Assembly (NCBI GenBank): GCA_022822005.1 | Contig: JAJECO010000092.1 | Location: 1-63,455, forward strand | Reading direction: 5' to 3' | Source of the DNA: Candidatus Poribacteria bacterium | GTDB taxonomy: Bacteria; Poribacteria; WGA-4E; PCPOR2b | Length of the DNA: 63,455 nt | In this document: positions 6,852-16,746 of the stretch, in pieces | How the letters are laid out: each line of letters starts with the position of its first letter | Numbering within the stretch: the stretch's first letter is position 1 | Notes under the pieces: generated by a model | Databases searched by the model: none | Told to the model about the DNA's origin: nothing | What the model saw: the letters and a program-made list of their open reading frames with translations, nothing else | Made by a program: the position numbers and the translations under genes

Positions 6852-8150
6852 TTACGGGGTGGTGAAACTGTTCAATAACTCCAACGCTGCATCGACCATC
6901 TGTCCGCCAGCGTCCGGCGCAAGATAGCTGCTCCGTGCTAACCACGTCTCATAGCCGCCATGCTCGTGCCCAAGCGGGGTTGGAACATAGCCGGTGTAGT
7001 CATTGGCAAGTTCGATGATAAACGTCGGGTTGAGCGGCGAAGCACCCTTGAGATCAATGCCGAACTGACAGAAAATCTCCCCAGTCAACGCAACGATTCC
7101 ACAATCTCCGATGCGGAAGGCTTGAATCGGGGTCGTGCGTGTATCTTCCCACTCGTTGACGAGAATCCGTTCACGGGCATAGAGTTCATCAACGGTCGGA
7201 TCGTCACTCGCGTTTGCCCATTTCGCTTCAGACTCGGCGAGTTCTGCGCTGGTCGGTTTCCGTATACCGCAGGTGATTTCTGTCTGCGCCGCCGAAAGGG
7301 GTACGTCATCGGTCATCGGTGCCGTCTGCCATGTCCGCCAAACTTCCGCTGCAACGATTCGGGCGACCTTCCGCGTCTGGGCAAAGGGGCGTCGATCCAT
7401 CGGCGGGTGATGGACGTTAATGTTATTAATGTCGCCTGAACAACCGTTGGAGAGCATTGCAACGAATCCTGCCCCCGCCATCCGTTGAAGTTCTTCGGCA
7501 AACAGCCCGAAGTAGTCTGCGGAGATCATGTGTCCCGGTGCGCCGACATAGTGCAGCGCATAGTTGGCGAGGACTGCTATCGGTTGACCCTCAATTGTCT
7601 CGACGAAAAGTCCAGCTATATCCGGGTCGGTAGGTCCCACCGTTTCGACGATGTCGGGGTTATTATATCCCGGATTCATCTTCACTGTGCCATCCTTCAT
7701 GCGGAACCGCCGATTGAACACGCAGCGCGATTCTTTCCCTACCCCATAACCCAATCTCGCTGGCTGCGCCCGTCCCGCTGCCAACTGAACGGCATCGGCG
7801 ACGCGGGCAGAAAAGAAGTCAAGGTAGCCCTGATTGGGAATAGTCTCAAAGCCCGGTTTCATCGCAGGGGCAGAATGCGTGTGGGTTCCTGCTATCAGCA
7901 CTCTTTCAACCGGTATCCCGACACGCTCCGCGATTAAGGCTTTAGCAGCGTGACATACTTCGCGGGGAATGCAGATGACATCACAGATGACAAAAGCGAT
8001 TTGTGTAGTCCCGTCATCCAGTACCAGTGCCTTCGCATGGAGTTCGTCGTGAACTTCCGTCGCATGACGCGCCTTCAACGAGCCAGCGAGATATGCGCCG
8101 AGCGGTGGCGTGATGTTGGTTTGGGCAGCCCCGGCTTTCAATTTAGCCAT
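6852..8150 (-). CDS. Neutral/alkaline ceramidase-like N-terminal-domain hydrolase
   Basis: The product is 432 residues. It has the family N-terminus AGAAQTNITPPLGAYLAG, the metal/catalytic block LIAGTHTHSAPAMKPG, and MLSNGCSGDINNINVHHPP, which corresponds to the conserved Gly-Asp region of neutral/alkaline non-lysosomal ceramidases. True ceramidases are about 650 residues and carry a C-terminal Ig-like domain; this one stops after the catalytic domain, as many environmental homologues do. No signal peptide is evident, so a cytoplasmic amide hydrolase with another substrate is possible. GAGGAGAAAG precedes the ATG. The cupin gene ends 21 bp upstream, so the two probably share an operon. The specific N-acyl substrate is unknown. 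Confidence 0.82.
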   Translation of the reverse strand: MAKLKAGAAQTNITPPLGAYLAGSLKARHATEVHDELHAKALVLDDGTTQIAFVICDVICIPREVCHAAKALIAERVGIPVERVLIAGTHTHSAPAMKPGFETIPNQGYLDFFSARVADAVQLAAGRAQPARLGYGVGKESRCVFNRRFRMKDGTVKMNPGYNNPDIVETVGPTDPDIAGLFVETIEGQPIAVLANYALHYVGAPGHMISADYFGLFAEELQRMAGAGFVAMLSNGCSGDINNINVHHPPMDRRPFAQTRKVARIVAAEVWRTWQTAPMTDDVPLSAAQTEITCGIRKPTSAELAESEAKWANASDDPTVDELYARERILVNEWEDTRTTPIQAFRIGDCGIVALTGEIFCQFGIDLKGASPLNPTFIIELANDYTGYVPTPLGHEHGGYETWLARSSYLAPDAGGQMVDAALELLNSFTTP

Positions 8151-8171: not shown

Positions 8172-8900
8172 TCACCGAGTATAACGGGCAAAATAGAATG
8201 TCTTGAGCGGTTCATCCGTGTCATTGATGAGCGTATGTCCGGGATTTGACGGTGCGACAGAGACCGCATCGCCGGGATGTTGCCGGTAGACGTTCTGGCT
8301 CACTACGTGGATGCCATTCCCTTCTAACATATACCACACCTCATCCATATCGTCGGCATGTCCGTGGGTATCAGGGGTCTGCATCGCGTCGATCGTTACC
8401 ATCAGGACGGAATGCATCTTCGCAAGCCCGTCATCCTCCCCGAAAATCGGATGGACGAGATGCGTCCAATGCCCCTGGCTCAAAGGACGTTCCCGGTAGT
8501 TTCTGATCAGTACATCTTCGCGCGGTGTCCCTTCAGCGTCGGCAAGTGCTTCCTCCAATATCAGAAATTCTAACGGCGTGTTTGCCTCGTTTGTTAGCGT
8601 ATGTGTGGTCCCCGGCGGCACAATGATGCCGTCTCCTTCGCGTACGTCCTGCTTGAGGTCTGCCGTCTCGAAAATGCCATCTCCATTAACGACGTAGAAG
8701 ACCAACTGCCGATCATCAAAGGACGTTGGTATCGACGCGATCCGCGATTCGAGATAGCACCGGGAAAAGCTATCAATGTAGTTGAGGATTGCCCCCGGTC
8801 TCTGGGAATCATCGGGATCTTTCTTGGAGAAGATTTCTCGCTTGATAATGTTACCGTGTGTGAGACTTGATGGGGATTGTAACCAACTTCTCATTTCCAT
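8172..8900 (-). CDS. Two-domain cupin protein, copy 1
   Basis: The 242-residue product has two cupin barrels. The first has REGDGIIVPPGTTHTL (about residues 85-101). The second has TPDTHGHADDMDEVWYMLEG and HPGDAVSVAPSNPGHTLIND, the paired cupin motifs with His and Glu metal ligands. Cupins of this form are often sugar isomerases, dioxygenases or binding proteins, and nothing here picks one. GGAGGTAACG precedes the ATG. It sits directly upstream of the ceramidase-like gene with a 21-bp gap. A very close paralogue (about nine residues in ten alike) lies 220 bp upstream in the same orientation, so the pair arose by tandem duplication. Confidence 0.85.
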   Translation of the reverse strand: MEMRSWLQSPSSLTHGNIIKREIFSKKDPDDSQRPGAILNYIDSFSRCYLESRIASIPTSFDDRQLVFYVVNGDGIFETADLKQDVREGDGIIVPPGTTHTLTNEANTPLEFLILEEALADAEGTPREDVLIRNYRERPLSQGHWTHLVHPIFGEDDGLAKMHSVLMVTIDAMQTPDTHGHADDMDEVWYMLEGNGIHVVSQNVYRQHPGDAVSVAPSNPGHTLINDTDEPLKTFYFARYTR

Positions 8901-8968
8901 CTTTCGTTACCTCCAATTTGTTTAATTAGGAGTTATGCTCTTCAGTAGAAAGGGCAACCACAAGTGCT

Positions 8969-9030
8969 TGCCCCTACAGAGCATGGATCCAACGTAGGGG
9001 CAGGCTTCCTAGTCCCGATGCCTCATCGGG
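8969..9030. repeat. Two palindromes between the cupin copies
   Basis: TGCCCCTAC (8969-8977) pairs with GTAGGGGCA (8994-9002), and CCCGATG (9014-9020) pairs with CATCGGG (9024-9030) around a 3-nt loop. They could end the upstream cupin transcript or be dispersed repeats; no T-run follows. Confidence 0.5.
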
Positions 9031-9089
9031 AGCTTGTACCTGCCCAACACTTAATCGTGAGTTAGATTAAAGTGTTGGATTTCACTACA

Positions 9090-9142
9090 CTCATCCATAT
9101 CGTCGGCATGACCATAGGTGTCAGGGATCTGCACTGCGTCGA
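9090..9142 (-). pseudogene. Fragment of a third cupin copy
   Basis: These 53 bp match the second-cupin segment of copy 2 (about 9293-9345) with only a few changes. In the ancestral frame they read DAVQIPDTYGHADDMDE, against DAMQTPDTHGHADDMDE in the intact copies. The fragment is fused directly to the end of copy 2 and, in a different frame, supplies its last codons and stop. It is the scar of a third tandem copy lost by deletion. Confidence 0.75.
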
Positions 9143-9852
9143 AAGTAGAACGTCTTGAGCGGCTCCTCCGTATCATTGATGAGGGTATGCCCGGGATTTG
9201 ACGGTGCGACAGAGACCGCATCGCCCGGTTGTTGCCGGTAGACGTTCTGGCTCACCACGTGGATGCCGCTACCTTCGAGCATATACCACACCTCATCCAT
9301 ATCGTCGGCATGTCCGTGGGTATCAGGGGTCTGCATTGCGTCGATTGTTACCATTAGGACGAAATGCAGCTTCGCAAGTCCATCAGTCTCTCCGAAAATG
9401 GAGTGGACGAGATGGGTCCAATGTCCCTGGCTAAGCGGATTCTCCCGGTAGTTTCTGATCAGTACATCTTCACGGGGCGTTCCCGCAGCGTCAGCGAGTA
9501 CCTCCTCTAATATCAGAAATTCTAACGGTGTGTCTGCCTCGTTTGTCAGCGTATGCGTAGTCCCCGGCGGCACGATAATGCCGTCTCCTTCACGGACCTC
9601 CTGCTTGAGGTCGCCGCCCTCGAAAGTGGCTTCACCGTCAACGATGTAGAAAATCAGTTGCCGATCGTCGAAAGCGGTTGGTATCGACGCGATTCGCGAT
9701 TCAAGATAGCACCGGGAGAAGCTATCAATAGAGTTGAGGATTGCACCCGGCTTGTGGGGATCGTCAGGGTCTTTCTTGGAGAAGATTTCTCGCCTGATAA
9801 TGTTACCGTGTGTGAGGCTTGAGGGGGATTGTAACCAATGTCTCATTTCCAT
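9121..9852 (-). CDS. Two-domain cupin protein, copy 2
   Basis: This is the 243-residue paralogue of the 8172-8900 cupin, with the same two motifs (REGDGIIVPPGTTHTL; THGHADDMDEVWYMLEG with QQPGDAVSVAPSNPGHTL). The two differ in scattered conservative positions, so both may be functional and the duplication is not brand new. The last residues (RRSADP after KTFYF) differ from copy 1 (ARYTR) because the 3' end runs into a fragment of a third copy in another frame. GGAGGTAAATACAG precedes the ATG. An extended -10 motif (TGCTATAAT on the minus strand, 9912-9920) lies about 60 bp upstream of the start. The ligand is unknown. Confidence 0.85.
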   Translation of the reverse strand: MEMRHWLQSPSSLTHGNIIRREIFSKKDPDDPHKPGAILNSIDSFSRCYLESRIASIPTAFDDRQLIFYIVDGEATFEGGDLKQEVREGDGIIVPPGTTHTLTNEADTPLEFLILEEVLADAAGTPREDVLIRNYRENPLSQGHWTHLVHSIFGETDGLAKLHFVLMVTIDAMQTPDTHGHADDMDEVWYMLEGSGIHVVSQNVYRQQPGDAVSVAPSNPGHTLINDTEEPLKTFYFRRSADP

Positions 9853-9911
9853 CTGTATTTACCTCCAATGTACTTGAACGCCCTAAGTTATTGTACATTT
9901 TATCCATTAAA

Positions 9912-9920
9912 ATTATAGCA
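9912..9920 (-). promoter_or_regulatory. Extended -10 element, likely cupin promoter
   Basis: The minus strand reads TGCTATAAT, a perfect extended -10 about 60 bp upstream of the cupin copy 2 start. The -35 region is weak (TCTCAC at 17 bp), as is usual for extended -10 promoters. Confidence 0.45.
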
Positions 9921-9971
9921 CGATTGGCGAAAAGGTGAGAGCCGAAAATGGCCTAATCCCTCACCGGGGCA

Positions 9972-11531
9972 CTACGCGGGCATCACCACCACCTCAACCT
10001 CATCAACAACAACCTCGGTGTCCGTATTGGGGGACGTAAGCTGCACCTTTAGGTAGTTGTCACCGTTGTTAAGCAGTTGCTGATTCAGGTTGAACCACAC
10101 ACTCGAGAACGGCGGCAGCGGTCGTCCGAACATCTCCAATCGACCATCTGGATGAAAAACGCGCTGGGCATCTTGGATTTCAATCCCATTGAATTCCACG
10201 ACGATGTCATCCTTCGGGAGCAATCCCTGTGCGCTGAAATACAGAACCACTGCTGTTCCTTGTACGACGGACTCGCAGAGGCGCAGACGGTATTCTCCGC
10301 TCGCCCCGCTCCCGCAGGTCAAGACGATCTTATCGTCCTTCACAGATCCGATTGGCGATTCTCCGCCCCATAGGGGATGAAAGCGATAGTGGCGCGCGCC
10401 ACGTGCGACAGTTTTTGGATCACGCAGCTCCCGCAAGTAGCTCAATGAGAGCGGATAGCCTTCCACAGGTCCCGGATAGCGGGCAATCCCTCCCTTTCGT
10501 GCCCAGTGGTACTGGTAGTTGAAAACTGAAATACCATCGGCTCCTGCGCCGTAGAAATTCTGTGCAAGGGCGCGATAGTTTTCTGGCTTGAGAAGTGTTG
10601 GATCGTCTCCGCGACACAGCACAGGACTCAGCGTGGGGTACAACATACAATCCGATCCGCGTGTCAACTGGCTGAACTCCTCGTAGGGCGCGTTGAAATC
10701 GGCAAAATGGAAATCACAGGGACAGATGTAGTCGATGAGCCCTTCCTGGATCCAAGTAGGGATATCGAATCCCAAACTGTGGCACTCCTCCAACCCCTGC
10801 GGAATCATTACCCCCAGCGTCAGGTTTTTCTGCTGCTGTGCGCTCCGGCGGTCCAACATCTCACGTACCCGCCGCAGGAAGTCAGTCATAACCGGTTGAC
10901 GGTCACGGGCAACATCGGTCGGAAAACAGTGCCCATGCCGAATATAGTTGAATAGCAAGCCGTCAACGTCGAACCGTTCTACCACCTCATCGGCAACAGA
11001 AAAAACGTAGTCCCGGACCGGTTCAAAGCTAAAGTCCTGACCGCCGGGAAATTCCTCCAGCTGCCACGCGGGGTTGTCCAGTATGAAACGTGCACCCTGA
11101 CCTCCGCTGCCGTGGCGGTCGTTCATGCGAAACTTTGCAATGAACTCCATCCCCCGATTGTGCGTCTGGTCGATCAAGACTTCCAACGGTATTATACCCG
11201 AATCCAGCATGGAGACGAAACGTTGGTGTTGGGGTCTGGCATCATACTCAAACCGATCTGAACGATATAAGAGCGTCCACCCTTGGGAATAGGTGGCTTG
11301 TGCGTAGCTGTCCACACCGTGATGGGCTAGGTCGTCTACCCACTGGATCAGATCCTCGCGTTGGGCAGGATCAGCTTTTGCCGTTGCTGCCTCAGGCATG
11401 TGAGCAACCTGCTGTCCGACCTGATAAAATGCGAGATTCGACGGATCGCTTGTGTAGATCAGTCTTCGCTCGCCGCGTGGTTCAAAGGGAGGTAGGGATT
11501 GATTTACGGGGTTTGTTGCGGCGTTGGTCAT
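9972..11531 (-). CDS. TIM-barrel glycoside-hydrolase-like protein
   Basis: The product is 519 residues, and GGAG lies 14 bp before the ATG. Residues about 60-370 read like a (beta/alpha)8 barrel of the glycosyl-hydrolase-like group: WVDDLAHHGVDSYAQATY, TLLYRSDRFEYDAR, THNRGMEFIAKFRMND, ERFDVDGLLFNYIRHG and GLIDYICPCDFHFAD are successive strand ends, and GADGISVFNYQYHW closes the barrel. The last 130 residues are a beta-sandwich module (VVEFNGIEIQDAQRVF, FSSVWFNLNQQLL). No signal peptide is visible. It is related in style to the product at 48899-50635. I cannot assign catalytic acids or substrate with confidence; a carbohydrate-acting enzyme is the best inference. Confidence 0.68.
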   Translation of the reverse strand: MTNAATNPVNQSLPPFEPRGERRLIYTSDPSNLAFYQVGQQVAHMPEAATAKADPAQREDLIQWVDDLAHHGVDSYAQATYSQGWTLLYRSDRFEYDARPQHQRFVSMLDSGIIPLEVLIDQTHNRGMEFIAKFRMNDRHGSGGQGARFILDNPAWQLEEFPGGQDFSFEPVRDYVFSVADEVVERFDVDGLLFNYIRHGHCFPTDVARDRQPVMTDFLRRVREMLDRRSAQQQKNLTLGVMIPQGLEECHSLGFDIPTWIQEGLIDYICPCDFHFADFNAPYEEFSQLTRGSDCMLYPTLSPVLCRGDDPTLLKPENYRALAQNFYGAGADGISVFNYQYHWARKGGIARYPGPVEGYPLSLSYLRELRDPKTVARGARHYRFHPLWGGESPIGSVKDDKIVLTCGSGASGEYRLRLCESVVQGTAVVLYFSAQGLLPKDDIVVEFNGIEIQDAQRVFHPDGRLEMFGRPLPPFSSVWFNLNQQLLNNGDNYLKVQLTSPNTDTEVVVDEVEVVVMPA

Positions 11532-11640: not shown

Positions 11641-14600
11641 CTATTTCAGGATCATCATCTTTCGTGTCGCGGAGTAATTTCCTGCTGTCAGGGTATAAAA
11701 ATACACGCCGCTCGCTACCCGCTCACCGACATCATTTCGCCCGTCCCAATAGACTGCCTTTGATCGATTTTCGTAGGCAGACGCAATTCGATGTCCAACC
11801 TCAAGGGTACGGACAATATGACCTGTCCCGTCATAGATGGTCAACCTCACGGAAGCATCCTCCGCCAACCGATACGGTATCCATGTCTCTGGATTGAACG
11901 GGTTTGGGTAGTTGGCTAACAGTTCTGTCTCTTTTGGAGTCAGGGCTACCAAGAGTTGTTCAAGTACCATCAGCCCCCGTTTTATGATGAGATCCCTACC
12001 CTCAAGTGCCCTTGCCTCGGTCAGCCAATCCTGAACCTCTACCGCTGTGAGTGCCTCCGACACTTGTGGCTGCGTTGAAGGGGCGGCGGCTGCACCTTCA
12101 AACATGCCCGCAACGGATATCAGGTCTAGAATGTTGACCTCTCCATCTCTGTTGACATCCGCTGCTATATTCTCCACTGTATTCCCAAGATTGGACGCTA
12201 TGACGACCAAATCCAAGACATTCACACTACCGTCGTTGTTGACATCGGCCGTAATGGATGGTGCTTCCGTATCGGAGATGGCGTAGAAAGTTACTGGTGC
12301 CTTAATTCCGGTGGCAGACACCTGTACGGTGTTTGTTCCTATGTTCGGACCCAGCGTGAGTGTGCTCTGTGCCCTGCCGTTTTCATCTGTCCTTGTGATT
12401 GTGGTGTTGAGCGTACCCCCGCCTGCGACAACGGCAAATGTGACCGAAATCCCTATAAGTGCAGACCCGTTTGCGTCCTGTGCTTCAATGACGAATGGCT
12501 GAGACAACGGCGTGAGGGATGCCCCGTTCTGGTTATCGCCTGAGATTTTCAGAAGGGCAGGATGCGCTTGGTTGTCAAACTCGACTGTAACCCCTCTGCT
12601 TTGGAGGGTTGGGATGTGTGTGTGGATAGATTGGTAACTCAGAGGATTTCCCTTCAGATTAATCTCATCTCCGCTTTCCAACCCTGTATTGGCTACTAGA
12701 GGTGAGAGATCCGAGATGTTGTTCCAAGCAAGACGCATCCACTTCAAGCTAGTTAATGCCGTCAAAGGTGAGAAGTCTGATACCGAGATGCTGTCAATAC
12801 CTAGTTTTGTCAGTTGGGTTAATCCCGCCAGAGGCGAGAGGTCCGATATCGGGTTACCGTCAAGAAATAATGATCCCAGATTGGTTAAGCCTGCTAAAAC
12901 CGATATGTCTGAGATATTGTTACTTACAAACCCCAAGTGTTTCAGATTGGTTAAGCCTGCCAAAGGCGATAGGTCTGATACCAAGTTTGACCAAAGATCC
13001 AGGTCTTCGAGATGGATTAATCCTACAAGGGGTGAAAGATCCGATACCGAGCTACTGTTGACGAAACGATTTCCTACCTGCTCACCGCCAAGCCGCAGCG
13101 ATTTCAGATTAGTAGCATATTCCAGCCCGGTCAAATCGCTAATGTCAGCGTTTCTCGCTTCAAGGCGTGTCAAAGTTGCCATCTCTGACGGGGCTATCGG
13201 ATCGCCTTCTGCTTTGCCGAGGGCGGTCTCAATTTTAGCGCGGAGGTTGGCGTCAGGAATGTCCACCGGAGCCTCCGCTACGGCGTTAAAGGTAATCGTC
13301 CCCTCAATTCCATTGGCAGACACAGAAACGGTATTTGTTCCCCGATTTGGTCCCAGTGTGAGTGTGCTCTCTGCTCTACCCTTTTCATCAGTGGTTGTGC
13401 TTGTAACACTGAGCGTTCCATCGCCTCCGGTAACGGTGAATGTGACCGAAATCCCTTCAAGCACTGAAAGGCTGTCATCCCGTACTACAATGACAAATGG
13501 GTTTGCAAGGATCACACCGGCCACACCTGTCTGGTTATCACCTGAAAGTTTTGATAGTCCAGGCGTTATGAGAAAAGGGGTGAAATCCCATAGACGCACC
13601 AAATTGTCGACACTCCCACTGGCAAGCATTGTTCCATCGGGACTGAATACAACAGATACGGCATCCCCTATATCCTCAGCGAGGGGCTCTTTGTATTGAC
13701 CGATCTCTATGTCCCACAACGAAATCCCACGGTTTCCAATGACAAGCGTCCCTCCATCCGGACTGAATGCCACCGGATTCACCCAACCTGTCTGGTCGGG
13801 GAGGGTTCTTATGTTTTTTCCAGTGTGTGGATTCCATAAGCGAATCGTTCCGTCCAGACCGCCACTGGCAAGTGTAGTCCCATCGGGACTGAACATCATA
13901 CGTCGAACATCACTCGTATGGCCAGTGAGAGTCCTTATGTGTTGTCCGGTATGTGGATTCCACAACCGAATCGTTTTGTCCGGACTACCGATGGCAAGCA
14001 TTGTTCCATCCGGGGAAAACGCCACTGAATTAACGAGGCCTGTAAGTGTTCTTTCGACCTGCCATGTGGTCGTATTCCATAACCGAACCGTCCGGTCGCT
14101 CCCGCCACTGGCAAGCATTGTACCATCAGAGCTGAATGCGACAGATGCAACTCCGACTCCGCCGCTATGGTCAGAGAGCGTTCTTTTGTGTGCTCCGGTG
14201 TTTGGGTTCCATAAGCGAATGGTTCCGTCCCAACTGGCACTAGCAAGCGCCTGTCCATCCGGACTGAACGCTACACTCGTGACATGATCTGTATGTCCTA
14301 TGAGGGTATACAATAGTTGTTCAGTATCAATATCCCACAAACAGACGGTTTTATCCCAACTCGCACTGGCGAGCGTTTGACCATCCGGACTGAACGCAAC
14401 GGACCAGATATGATCTGTATGCCCTTTAAGGGTCGCTTTGAGTTGACCAATTGCTACCTCTCTGGATGGTTCTGACAACAGCATTATCACTGCCAAGAGA
14501 TGTTCAAGCCCTGCAATCCCTTTTACCAGTGTTTCATTTTCAACTGCAAGCTGCTTGGCAGCGGTCAGCCATTGCTGAACATCTGCCACAGTGAACGTCT

Positions 14601-16746
14601 CAGCTGCTTGTTGAGGCACGGAAGACGAGTTTGCTGCAACCAAGAGCACGTCGAAAATATCGACAACCCTATCTTCGTTGATATCCGCCGAATCTTGCCC
14701 CTGCTGTCCGAAACGCGAGGCAACAGGTGTCAAATCTAGAATGTTCACAACTCCATCGCTGTTAACATCTAAGACGTTTTGGGTAGGTACTGCCTTATCT
14801 AACTGGATAGGAAAGGTCGCCCAGGTGATATTCCCACCCACATCGATAATTTGAAGTGTGACCCTATCAACAAGTTCTGCCGTTCTAACGGTAGATTCGA
14901 CGGTGTCCGTTGTGCCCTTTAATCGTTTACAGTCGAACAACCTGTAAGGCCCCCATCCAGAGCCTTCTTGGCCAAGTTCTGGCACCAACAACTGCGCTTG
15001 ATGAAGCCCATCGGGATCTGTCACCTCAAAACGAAGGCTTATTACGTCTCGGCTATAAGTCCGTAAAGAAAGAAGTTGAATTTCCCCCGGCGCGTTGCGG
15101 AATATTGATTTGGTATTAAAGAAACGGCTGACAGATAACCACTCAGCAGCACACTTAGACAATCGGATTGGATGAGCGTTATAAGCCATAACGTAGTCTC
15201 TCGAAATACCTACCCGGGAATCGTGGTTCAATCCAAAGGCATGTCCAAGTTCATGGAGTGTCGCACCCCAAAAATTATTATTGGTCCCGTTCCCAACACA
15301 GGCATCACCAGACGCGGGTATTATGGCTGAACCTCCAAGTGCTTCTTCCCCTTTCGTCAAATCTCTGTGTCTCATTGCTCCTGCGCCAAAAAAACTTAAT
15401 GGCCGTCCCCTTGAAGGAAAAAAAGCGACCCCGGCCAGACCGCATGCCCTGCCTTCGTTAAGTTTTTCATAACTAAGATCTATTGCAGTGAGATAGACGT
15501 GCTGAAGATCGCTACCGTTAAAATGTTCAAAAAATTCTTCCCAGACGTTGAAATCTGTATTCCCTGTATCCTCTGTGTAATAATAATAGTCCTCTGTGAA
15601 CTTCCCATCAATTTGATGTACCACCGGTTCTCCATTTTCATCGGTTTCAACGGTAAAGGTCTTTCTGCCATATCCGTGACGTTCCATCTCATCCGCAAAA
15701 AACCGTTGCATATCTTTAATCAACTGACGCAGTGCTGCCACTATGTCTGGCCGGGCGGGGCGATCGCTTGGGAGGAAGTAGAGCAGCCGAACCATTCCGT
15801 TCGTATCAATAGAAGGTAGAGGTGGAGGTGGGCGGTTGTCAAACTCGACTGTAACCCCTCTGTTTTGGAGCGCGGGAATATGGGTGTGGAAAGATTGGGC
15901 ACTGAGGCGGTTTCCCCGAACATGAACCATATCTCCACTTCCCAATCCTGTATTAGTTACTAGCGGTAAGAGGTCCGAAATCCAATTGTTCTGAAGCCGT
16001 AGTTCTATCAAGTTGGTTAAACCTGCTAAAGGCGATATGTCAGTGATGGCGTTGCCTCCAAGCCACAGTCTAGTCAGATTGGTTAAGCCGGCTAAAGGCA
16101 ATATGTCGGTGATATTGTTGCTTCCAAGCCACAGTCCTGTCAAGTTGGTTAAATCTGCTAAAGGCGAGACGTCCGCAATGTCGTTGCCCCCAAGTTCCAG
16201 TCTAGTCAGGTTGGTTAAGCCGGCTAAAGCCGATATATCCGTGATGTTGTTGCTCCAAAGACTCAGGCCTGTCAGGTTCGTTAGTCTTGCGACCGGCGAT
16301 ATGTCGGTGATGTCGTTGCCTCCAAGCCACAGTCTGGTCAAATTGGTTAGTCCTGTGACCGGCGATATATCCGATATGCTGGTGTCCTCAAGCCGCAGCA
16401 CTGTCAGATTGGTTAATCCTACAAGGGGTGAGAGGTCTGATACCGAGCTGCTGTTGATCCAACGCCCCACCTCCTGCACATACTCGCGCTTAAGCAACAA
16501 TTCTGTCAGGTTGGTCGCATGTTCCAGTCCCGTTAAATCGCTGATGTTGGCGTTTCGTGCTTCAAGACGGGTCAACTGTGCCATATCTGACGCGGTGATG
16601 GGGGCACCCGACGCTTTGCTAAGTGCCTTTTCAATCACGGTGCGGAGGTTGGGGTCAGGGATGGATACGACTTGTGCCGTGGCAGGCAGCGGAAGGGTGA
16701 GATATATCAACAGGAGAAAGGGGAAATGCAGATGTTGTTTGTTCAT
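11641..16746 (-). CDS. Giant secreted mosaic: LRR, metzincin-like protease, dockerins, WD40, Ig-like, C-terminal sorting-like domain
   Basis: This is a 1701-residue protein with a signal peptide (FPFLLLIYLTLPLPATA). Order of modules: internalin-type 22-residue LRRs (about 60-300); a protease region with HELGHAFGLNHD at 498-509, the HExxHxxGxxH metzincin zinc motif; a type I dockerin with DVNSDGVVNILD at about 660; about seven WD40 repeats (about 770-1050; FSPDGQTLASASWDKTV); an Ig-like Big_1-type domain (about 1056-1150); a second LRR block (about 1163-1395); a second Ig-like domain (about 1398-1496); a second dockerin (about 1498-1552); and a C-terminal FlgD/T9SS-like module with NYPNPFNPETWIPY at about 1607. 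It is probably exported and cell-surface or extracellular. A -35/-10 pair is not obvious. The protease activity is inferred from the motif alone. Confidence 0.9.
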   Translation of the reverse strand: MNKQHLHFPFLLLIYLTLPLPATAQVVSIPDPNLRTVIEKALSKASGAPITASDMAQLTRLEARNANISDLTGLEHATNLTELLLKREYVQEVGRWINSSSVSDLSPLVGLTNLTVLRLEDTSISDISPVTGLTNLTRLWLGGNDITDISPVARLTNLTGLSLWSNNITDISALAGLTNLTRLELGGNDIADVSPLADLTNLTGLWLGSNNITDILPLAGLTNLTRLWLGGNAITDISPLAGLTNLIELRLQNNWISDLLPLVTNTGLGSGDMVHVRGNRLSAQSFHTHIPALQNRGVTVEFDNRPPPPLPSIDTNGMVRLLYFLPSDRPARPDIVAALRQLIKDMQRFFADEMERHGYGRKTFTVETDENGEPVVHQIDGKFTEDYYYYTEDTGNTDFNVWEEFFEHFNGSDLQHVYLTAIDLSYEKLNEGRACGLAGVAFFPSRGRPLSFFGAGAMRHRDLTKGEEALGGSAIIPASGDACVGNGTNNNFWGATLHELGHAFGLNHDSRVGISRDYVMAYNAHPIRLSKCAAEWLSVSRFFNTKSIFRNAPGEIQLLSLRTYSRDVISLRFEVTDPDGLHQAQLLVPELGQEGSGWGPYRLFDCKRLKGTTDTVESTVRTAELVDRVTLQIIDVGGNITWATFPIQLDKAVPTQNVLDVNSDGVVNILDLTPVASRFGQQGQDSADINEDRVVDIFDVLLVAANSSSVPQQAAETFTVADVQQWLTAAKQLAVENETLVKGIAGLEHLLAVIMLLSEPSREVAIGQLKATLKGHTDHIWSVAFSPDGQTLASASWDKTVCLWDIDTEQLLYTLIGHTDHVTSVAFSPDGQALASASWDGTIRLWNPNTGAHKRTLSDHSGGVGVASVAFSSDGTMLASGGSDRTVRLWNTTTWQVERTLTGLVNSVAFSPDGTMLAIGSPDKTIRLWNPHTGQHIRTLTGHTSDVRRMMFSPDGTTLASGGLDGTIRLWNPHTGKNIRTLPDQTGWVNPVAFSPDGGTLVIGNRGISLWDIEIGQYKEPLAEDIGDAVSVVFSPDGTMLASGSVDNLVRLWDFTPFLITPGLSKLSGDNQTGVAGVILANPFVIVVRDDSLSVLEGISVTFTVTGGDGTLSVTSTTTDEKGRAESTLTLGPNRGTNTVSVSANGIEGTITFNAVAEAPVDIPDANLRAKIETALGKAEGDPIAPSEMATLTRLEARNADISDLTGLEYATNLKSLRLGGEQVGNRFVNSSSVSDLSPLVGLIHLEDLDLWSNLVSDLSPLAGLTNLKHLGFVSNNISDISVLAGLTNLGSLFLDGNPISDLSPLAGLTQLTKLGIDSISVSDFSPLTALTSLKWMRLAWNNISDLSPLVANTGLESGDEINLKGNPLSYQSIHTHIPTLQSRGVTVEFDNQAHPALLKISGDNQNGASLTPLSQPFVIEAQDANGSALIGISVTFAVVAGGGTLNTTITRTDENGRAQSTLTLGPNIGTNTVQVSATGIKAPVTFYAISDTEAPSITADVNNDGSVNVLDLVVIASNLGNTVENIAADVNRDGEVNILDLISVAGMFEGAAAAPSTQPQVSEALTAVEVQDWLTEARALEGRDLIIKRGLMVLEQLLVALTPKETELLANYPNPFNPETWIPYRLAEDASVRLTIYDGTGHIVRTLEVGHRIASAYENRSKAVYWDGRNDVGERVASGVYFYTLTAGNYSATRKMMILK

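Follow-up and report, generated by a model that had tools for sequence, protein, structure and literature searches.

A Candidatus Poribacteria cupin gene pair in which one copy probably gained a new C-terminus by out-of-frame internal duplication

Two general classes of events come closest to the locus described here. One is the partial (intragenic) tandem duplication with a frameshift and the subsequent loss of sequence between short direct repeats, and the other is the tandem duplication of a gene with gene conversion between the paralogs. The products are cupins, a family characterised by the metal-ligand set HxH...E...H in a barrel. The locus lies within a stretch of 63,455 nucleotides that was analysed as a whole (the window), and the closest named relatives of its cupins are found in Ca. 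Poribacteria MAGs. Word searches of the literature returned no title on this cupin locus among the matches listed.

The window contains two cupin genes, copies A and B (Table 1), in tandem on the minus strand, with B as the upstream and A as the downstream member. A preliminary description had called them near-identical and numbered them copy 1 (A) and copy 2 (B). The tandem pair of two-domain cupins is borne out, while the wording is slightly generous, the copies having 86.8% DNA identity over 712 columns and 87% protein identity. They are the only two close copies in this genome, where three other matches have 23-33% identity. The GHL10-type gene that precedes B is present in four of the seven relatives searched (G001-G004). 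Beyond the Ceramidase_alk-like gene that follows A, the next gene scores just under the cut-off for tartrate dehydrogenase (468.1 vs 470.4 bits). Part of the spacer between B and A matches an interspersed repeat which occurs in at least 12 further places in the genome, each of them partial (best 40 of 46 candidates); a similar stretch was noticed by eye upstream of B in G004. A promoter scan of positions 8860-10000 found no sigma-70-like promoter. The minus strand at 11641-16746 holds an ORF of 1701 aa in which leucine-rich and WD40-type repeats and dockerin-like segments were recognised by eye, and the long ORFs antisense to it (e.g. 12689-13699 on the plus strand) may be by-products of its repeats.

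Table 1. Positions of the cupin genes, their neighbours and the elements of the duplicated segment in the window
Feature	Coordinates	Strand	Remarks
Ceramidase_alk-like gene	6852..8150	-	downstream of A; start survives behind the longer remnant in G003
Cupin copy A	8172..8900	-	242 aa, two-domain, ends in ARYTR; ceramidase-like side
Part of B-A spacer	8927..9028	.	matches interspersed repeat
GATGAG	9090..9095	-	end point of later 349-bp deletion relative to G003; the 6-mer is at both G003 end points
Remnant X	9090..9142	-	cupin nt 509-561; start of second 202-bp repeat of B
Cupin copy B	9121..9852	-	243 aa, two-domain, ends in TFYF-RRSADP; GHL10 side
Stop codon of B	9121-9123	-	ends the RRSADP tail
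Six new codons, RRSADP	9124..9141	-	RRSADP in G004 too; RRSPDS in G003
Duplicated B segment (nt 510-711)	9142..9343	-	period taken from G003 (Tandem Repeats Finder)
GHL10-type glycoside-hydrolase-like gene	9972..11531	-	upstream of B

Each protein includes two stretches assigned to Cupin_2 (PF07883); the scores are 69.6 and 74.6 bits, well over the curated cut-off of 27.2. Among 27 aligned proteins, H179, H181 and E187 of domain 2 are invariant and H222 is nearly so; domain 1, inspected by eye, is without the first two His residues of the ligand set. The scores for (S)-ureidoglycine aminohydrolase (TIGR03214; 26.2 and 28.0 bits) are so far under the cut-off of 200 that A and B are not placed in that family. 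A search of PDB sequences with copy A returned seven distinct sequences at E <= 0.01, the best at 6e-4, and no close solved relative. The best AlphaFold2 model, based on the 27 sequences, had a pLDDT of 81.4 and a pTM of 0.82, with the five models ranging in pLDDT from 53.6 to 81.4. Foldseek matches the model to bicupins, among them 1sef, DR1152 (1sfn), BacB (3h9a), (S)-ureidoglycine aminohydrolase (4e2q) and oxalate decarboxylase (E values 1.1e-12 to 4.8e-12 for the last four), which likewise consist of two cupin barrels; these fold matches nevertheless differ from A and B, with 12-17% identity among the 50 matches listed. From family knowledge, A and B are presumably metal-dependent enzymes acting on small molecules.

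A stretch of 53 nucleotides, remnant X, matches copy A at 46/53 positions and copy B at 47/53. As none of 1935 control 53-mers from elsewhere in the window exceeds 31/53 against the cupin copies, the 53-bp match between the genes reported in the preliminary description is real, and BLASTN with the two genes as queries gave E values of 5e-13 and 1e-14. Positions 9121-9142 of the remnant are coding and form the end of B, and positions 9090-9120 are non-coding. Copy B enters the remnant out of frame at 9142, where one nucleotide (T) is common to both sides of the junction, and its last six codons read RRSADP; the earlier attribution of this C-terminus to a fragment read in a different frame was correct. 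The ordinary end is TFYF-ARYTR, and FYFAR occupies the tail position in 24 of the 27 aligned proteins, the exceptions being B and two rows with shortened coordinates. The junction corresponds to residue 237/238, where the last beta strand of the model (residues 232-239) ends; model confidence is low behind this strand. Because of this position the fusion is predicted to swap a short tail and not the barrel, so that B would be a complete two-domain cupin. A clue to the origin of the remnant is that its start lies exactly 202 bp from its counterpart in B.

The locus was compared in a genus sample of six genomes including that of the window (G000), a family sample of nine, and a wider sample of 58, again including the window's. 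The gene pair with the same junction occurs in three of the six genus genomes (G000, G003 and G004): B is ordinary up to nt 711 and then continues from nt 509 onward. The remnant measures 221 nt in G003 (509-729), 53 nt in the window, where only this first part of the second repeat remains, and 24 nt in G004 (509-532). All three carry 517G, which fits a single origin. The G003 remnant includes the cupin stop codon. The 88 bp that follow it match the sequence downstream of A in G004 with 87.5% identity, and about 65 bp of these belong to the start of the ceramidase-like coding sequence. This likeness of the flank indicates that the G003 remnant carries the true cupin 3' end and its flank. Tandem Repeats Finder reports for G003 a period of 202 with 2.0 copies and 94% matches, and the 1-nt overlap of the BLASTN matches likewise yields 202 bp. 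Copy B and the fragment in G003 have the structure expected of one gene in which 202 bp were duplicated in tandem, composed of nt 1-711, nt 509-729 and flank, i.e., of head-to-tail copies and then the gene's own 3' end. The third gene copy that the preliminary description had invoked is not needed.

On the reading of the preliminary description, single-copy relatives would be without the fragment at this place. In G002, which has one normal copy, and in G007 there is a single full match without an extra fragment and without the junction, and no match was found in G005. G001 has a decayed single cupin in which about nt 2-89 are joined to nt 595-721, also without the junction; a protein search (E <= 1e-20) had classed this genome as having no cupin, a result overturned by a DNA search and by reading of the locus. 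The decayed gene is at L088:467-690, behind the GHL10 gene, and is followed by a frame that by eye resembles the tartrate-dehydrogenase-like gene; the best ceramidase-like match of G001 has only 35% identity and is located elsewhere. By the same protein search, 28 of the 58 genomes have a match and 30 do not. Outside the genus there are 24 matching genomes, 22 with one match (that of G042 partial) and two with three. The latter, G009 and G012 (L040 and L041; another family), each encode three remote paralogs with 46-49% identity to B, two of which are about 1.1 kb apart in each genome, and they probably represent an independent expansion.

The results from site comparisons and trees bear on the source of the repeat. 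Over nt 509-710 the G003 fragment shares six sites (516, 576, 584, 600, 622 and 623) with at least one B copy and no A-type copy, two of the six being found in all three B copies, and it shares no site with A-type copies only. Trees uniting the fragment with the three A copies (p-AU 0.025) or with G003 A alone (p-AU 0.015) were rejected, and with the count of six sites to none this rules out copy A as the source. Judged by its sequence affinities, the fragment derives from B at a time when B had already separated from A. The affinity is that of a repeat derived from the same gene copy, and a separate B-derived gene would score alike. In the best tree of the 203 columns the fragment is placed beside G003 B, on weak support (74/90), and does not fall outside the group of B copies. 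A constraint that joins it to the three B copies comes at a cost of 4.4 log units and is not rejected (p-AU 0.22); a clade of the three B copies without the fragment is rejected on the same columns (p 0.036). Given the place of the fragment beside G003 B, a single old event needs later conversion, and the fragment probably exchanged sequence with B in G003 at a later time.

The proposal that we consider very probable is a single 202-bp tandem duplication inside B, later mostly deleted, with ongoing conversion. A single cupin gene between the GHL10 and ceramidase-like genes would have been duplicated in tandem, and this duplication would have extended at least some 65 bp into the ceramidase-like coding sequence. 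After the divergence of B and A had begun, one illegitimate event with one shared nucleotide would have duplicated nt 510-711 of B, within its second cupin domain. Since 202 cannot be divided by 3, the second repeat is entered out of frame, and the reading frame closes six codons later. What remained untranslated of the second repeat, together with the original 3' end of B and the gene stub, would then have been free to decay and would have been shortened separately in each lineage, leaving 221, 53 and 24 nt, with gene conversion between A and B continuing. We infer in which order these events took place, that the remnant shrank and did not grow, and by what mechanism the mutations arose, the last from general knowledge, around what is observed directly: the structures, the common junction, the fragment's affinity to B, the end points of the 349-bp difference and the low dN/dS of both genes. 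Relative to G003, the window is without 349 bp between two copies of GATGAG, although this 6-mer is present four times in the G003 stretch, which makes its position at the end points less striking than it looks. G004 has lost more than the window, down to just behind the stop codon of B. Of the recombination followed by deletion that had been suggested earlier, the tandem duplication and the later deletion can be retained, without the third copy. In the passages of a study of E. coli mutation-accumulation lines that bear on such events, tandem duplications are described as rare and microhomology is not mentioned (PMC10292909).

An array of three full genes, in which a deletion that began at the end of B and reached into the middle of the third copy joined the two and was followed by further deletions, would leave identical DNA, so that parsimony has to decide. 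Copy number at the locus does vary among the relatives (pair, single, decayed and none), and spacer deletions did occur, as the 349 bp show. Such an array, however, costs one extra duplication, and its third copy would have to be derived from B on the evidence of the six sites to none. Moreover, neither a full third cupin nor its 5' part was found at the locus in the 58 genomes or in the nine of the family, and no cupin sequence from before nt 509 adjoins the junction in the window, G003 or G004. We regard this array as improbable and retain the duplication inside B.

Both A and B look to be under purifying selection, with dN/dS values of 0.046-0.113 when the seven copies found in the genus are compared in all 21 combinations; the values, obtained by the NG86 method with our own script, are rough, dS often exceeding 0.5 (up to 1.4). 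For the G003 fragment against G003 B over nt 511-711 the ratio is 0.31, on small counts (5.5 synonymous and 6.5 non-synonymous), vs 0.020-0.064 for B against B. In the full-gene tree neither the three B copies (p-AU 0.023) nor the three A copies (p-AU 0.0078) form one clade, and the likely reason for the mixed clades is gene conversion. A run test of five pairs, uncorrected, supports conversion between G003 A and B at nt 132-207 (p 0.0002) and is weak for window A and G003 B at nt 216-258 (p 0.016); it was not significant for G004 A/B (0.70), window A/B (0.089) and window B/G004 A (0.21). For G004, conversion is suggested by the tree, in which its A and B pair together (98/98), and by a 3-bp insertion restricted to these two among the eight aligned copies. 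The tail downstream of nt 711 has escaped conversion: at ten columns between 715 and 732 every B copy differs from every A copy. It might be supposed that the RRSADP tail, made once, was kept by selection in three genomes while the downstream sequence decayed, and B would then perhaps be a functionally distinct cupin, e.g., through C-terminal contacts within an oligomer or with a partner; we think selection on the tail decidedly unlikely.

The grouping of G004 A with G004 B and their common insertion could also be taken to mean that pairs and junctions were gained independently in the three genomes. Against this, the junctions of the three genomes coincide to the nucleotide, a single base of shared sequence being all that could have guided them, and 517G and parts of the spacer are common to the three, which makes independent gain very improbable beside one duplication inside B with later conversion. 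An assembly artefact (repeat collapse or misjoin) could be suspected, given that the junction genomes are in 97, about 130 and about 50 contigs and that the records matching G003 and G004 are metagenome-assembled, but it can practically be dismissed, since the junction is common to three assemblies, which represent at least two record series (JAJDUM and PYIZ) and yet differ by substitutions and by the length of remnant left.

On this reading, the duplication inside B is a small, well-resolved case of a gene gaining a new C-terminus by one out-of-frame internal duplication, and in each of three relatives the untranslated rest survives at another length while it is being lost. It also carries the caution that a short out-of-place match beside a pair of paralogs need not signify a lost third gene. 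With the class of intragenic duplications the locus shares the head-to-tail partial repeat, the period that is not a multiple of 3 and the 1-nt homology at the junction, and with deletions at short repeats it shares a subsequent loss whose end points carry a 6-bp repeat. It is of the same kind as other intragenic duplications and unusual only in that relatives preserve three lengths of one decaying repeat. Adjacent copies and runs of identity between A and B are shared with the class of converting paralogs, from which the locus differs by a tail that, beyond nt 711, is specific to B in each of the three genomes. In toto, this is the ordinary wear of gene duplication, a known kind of event and not a new system, in an unusually well documented form.
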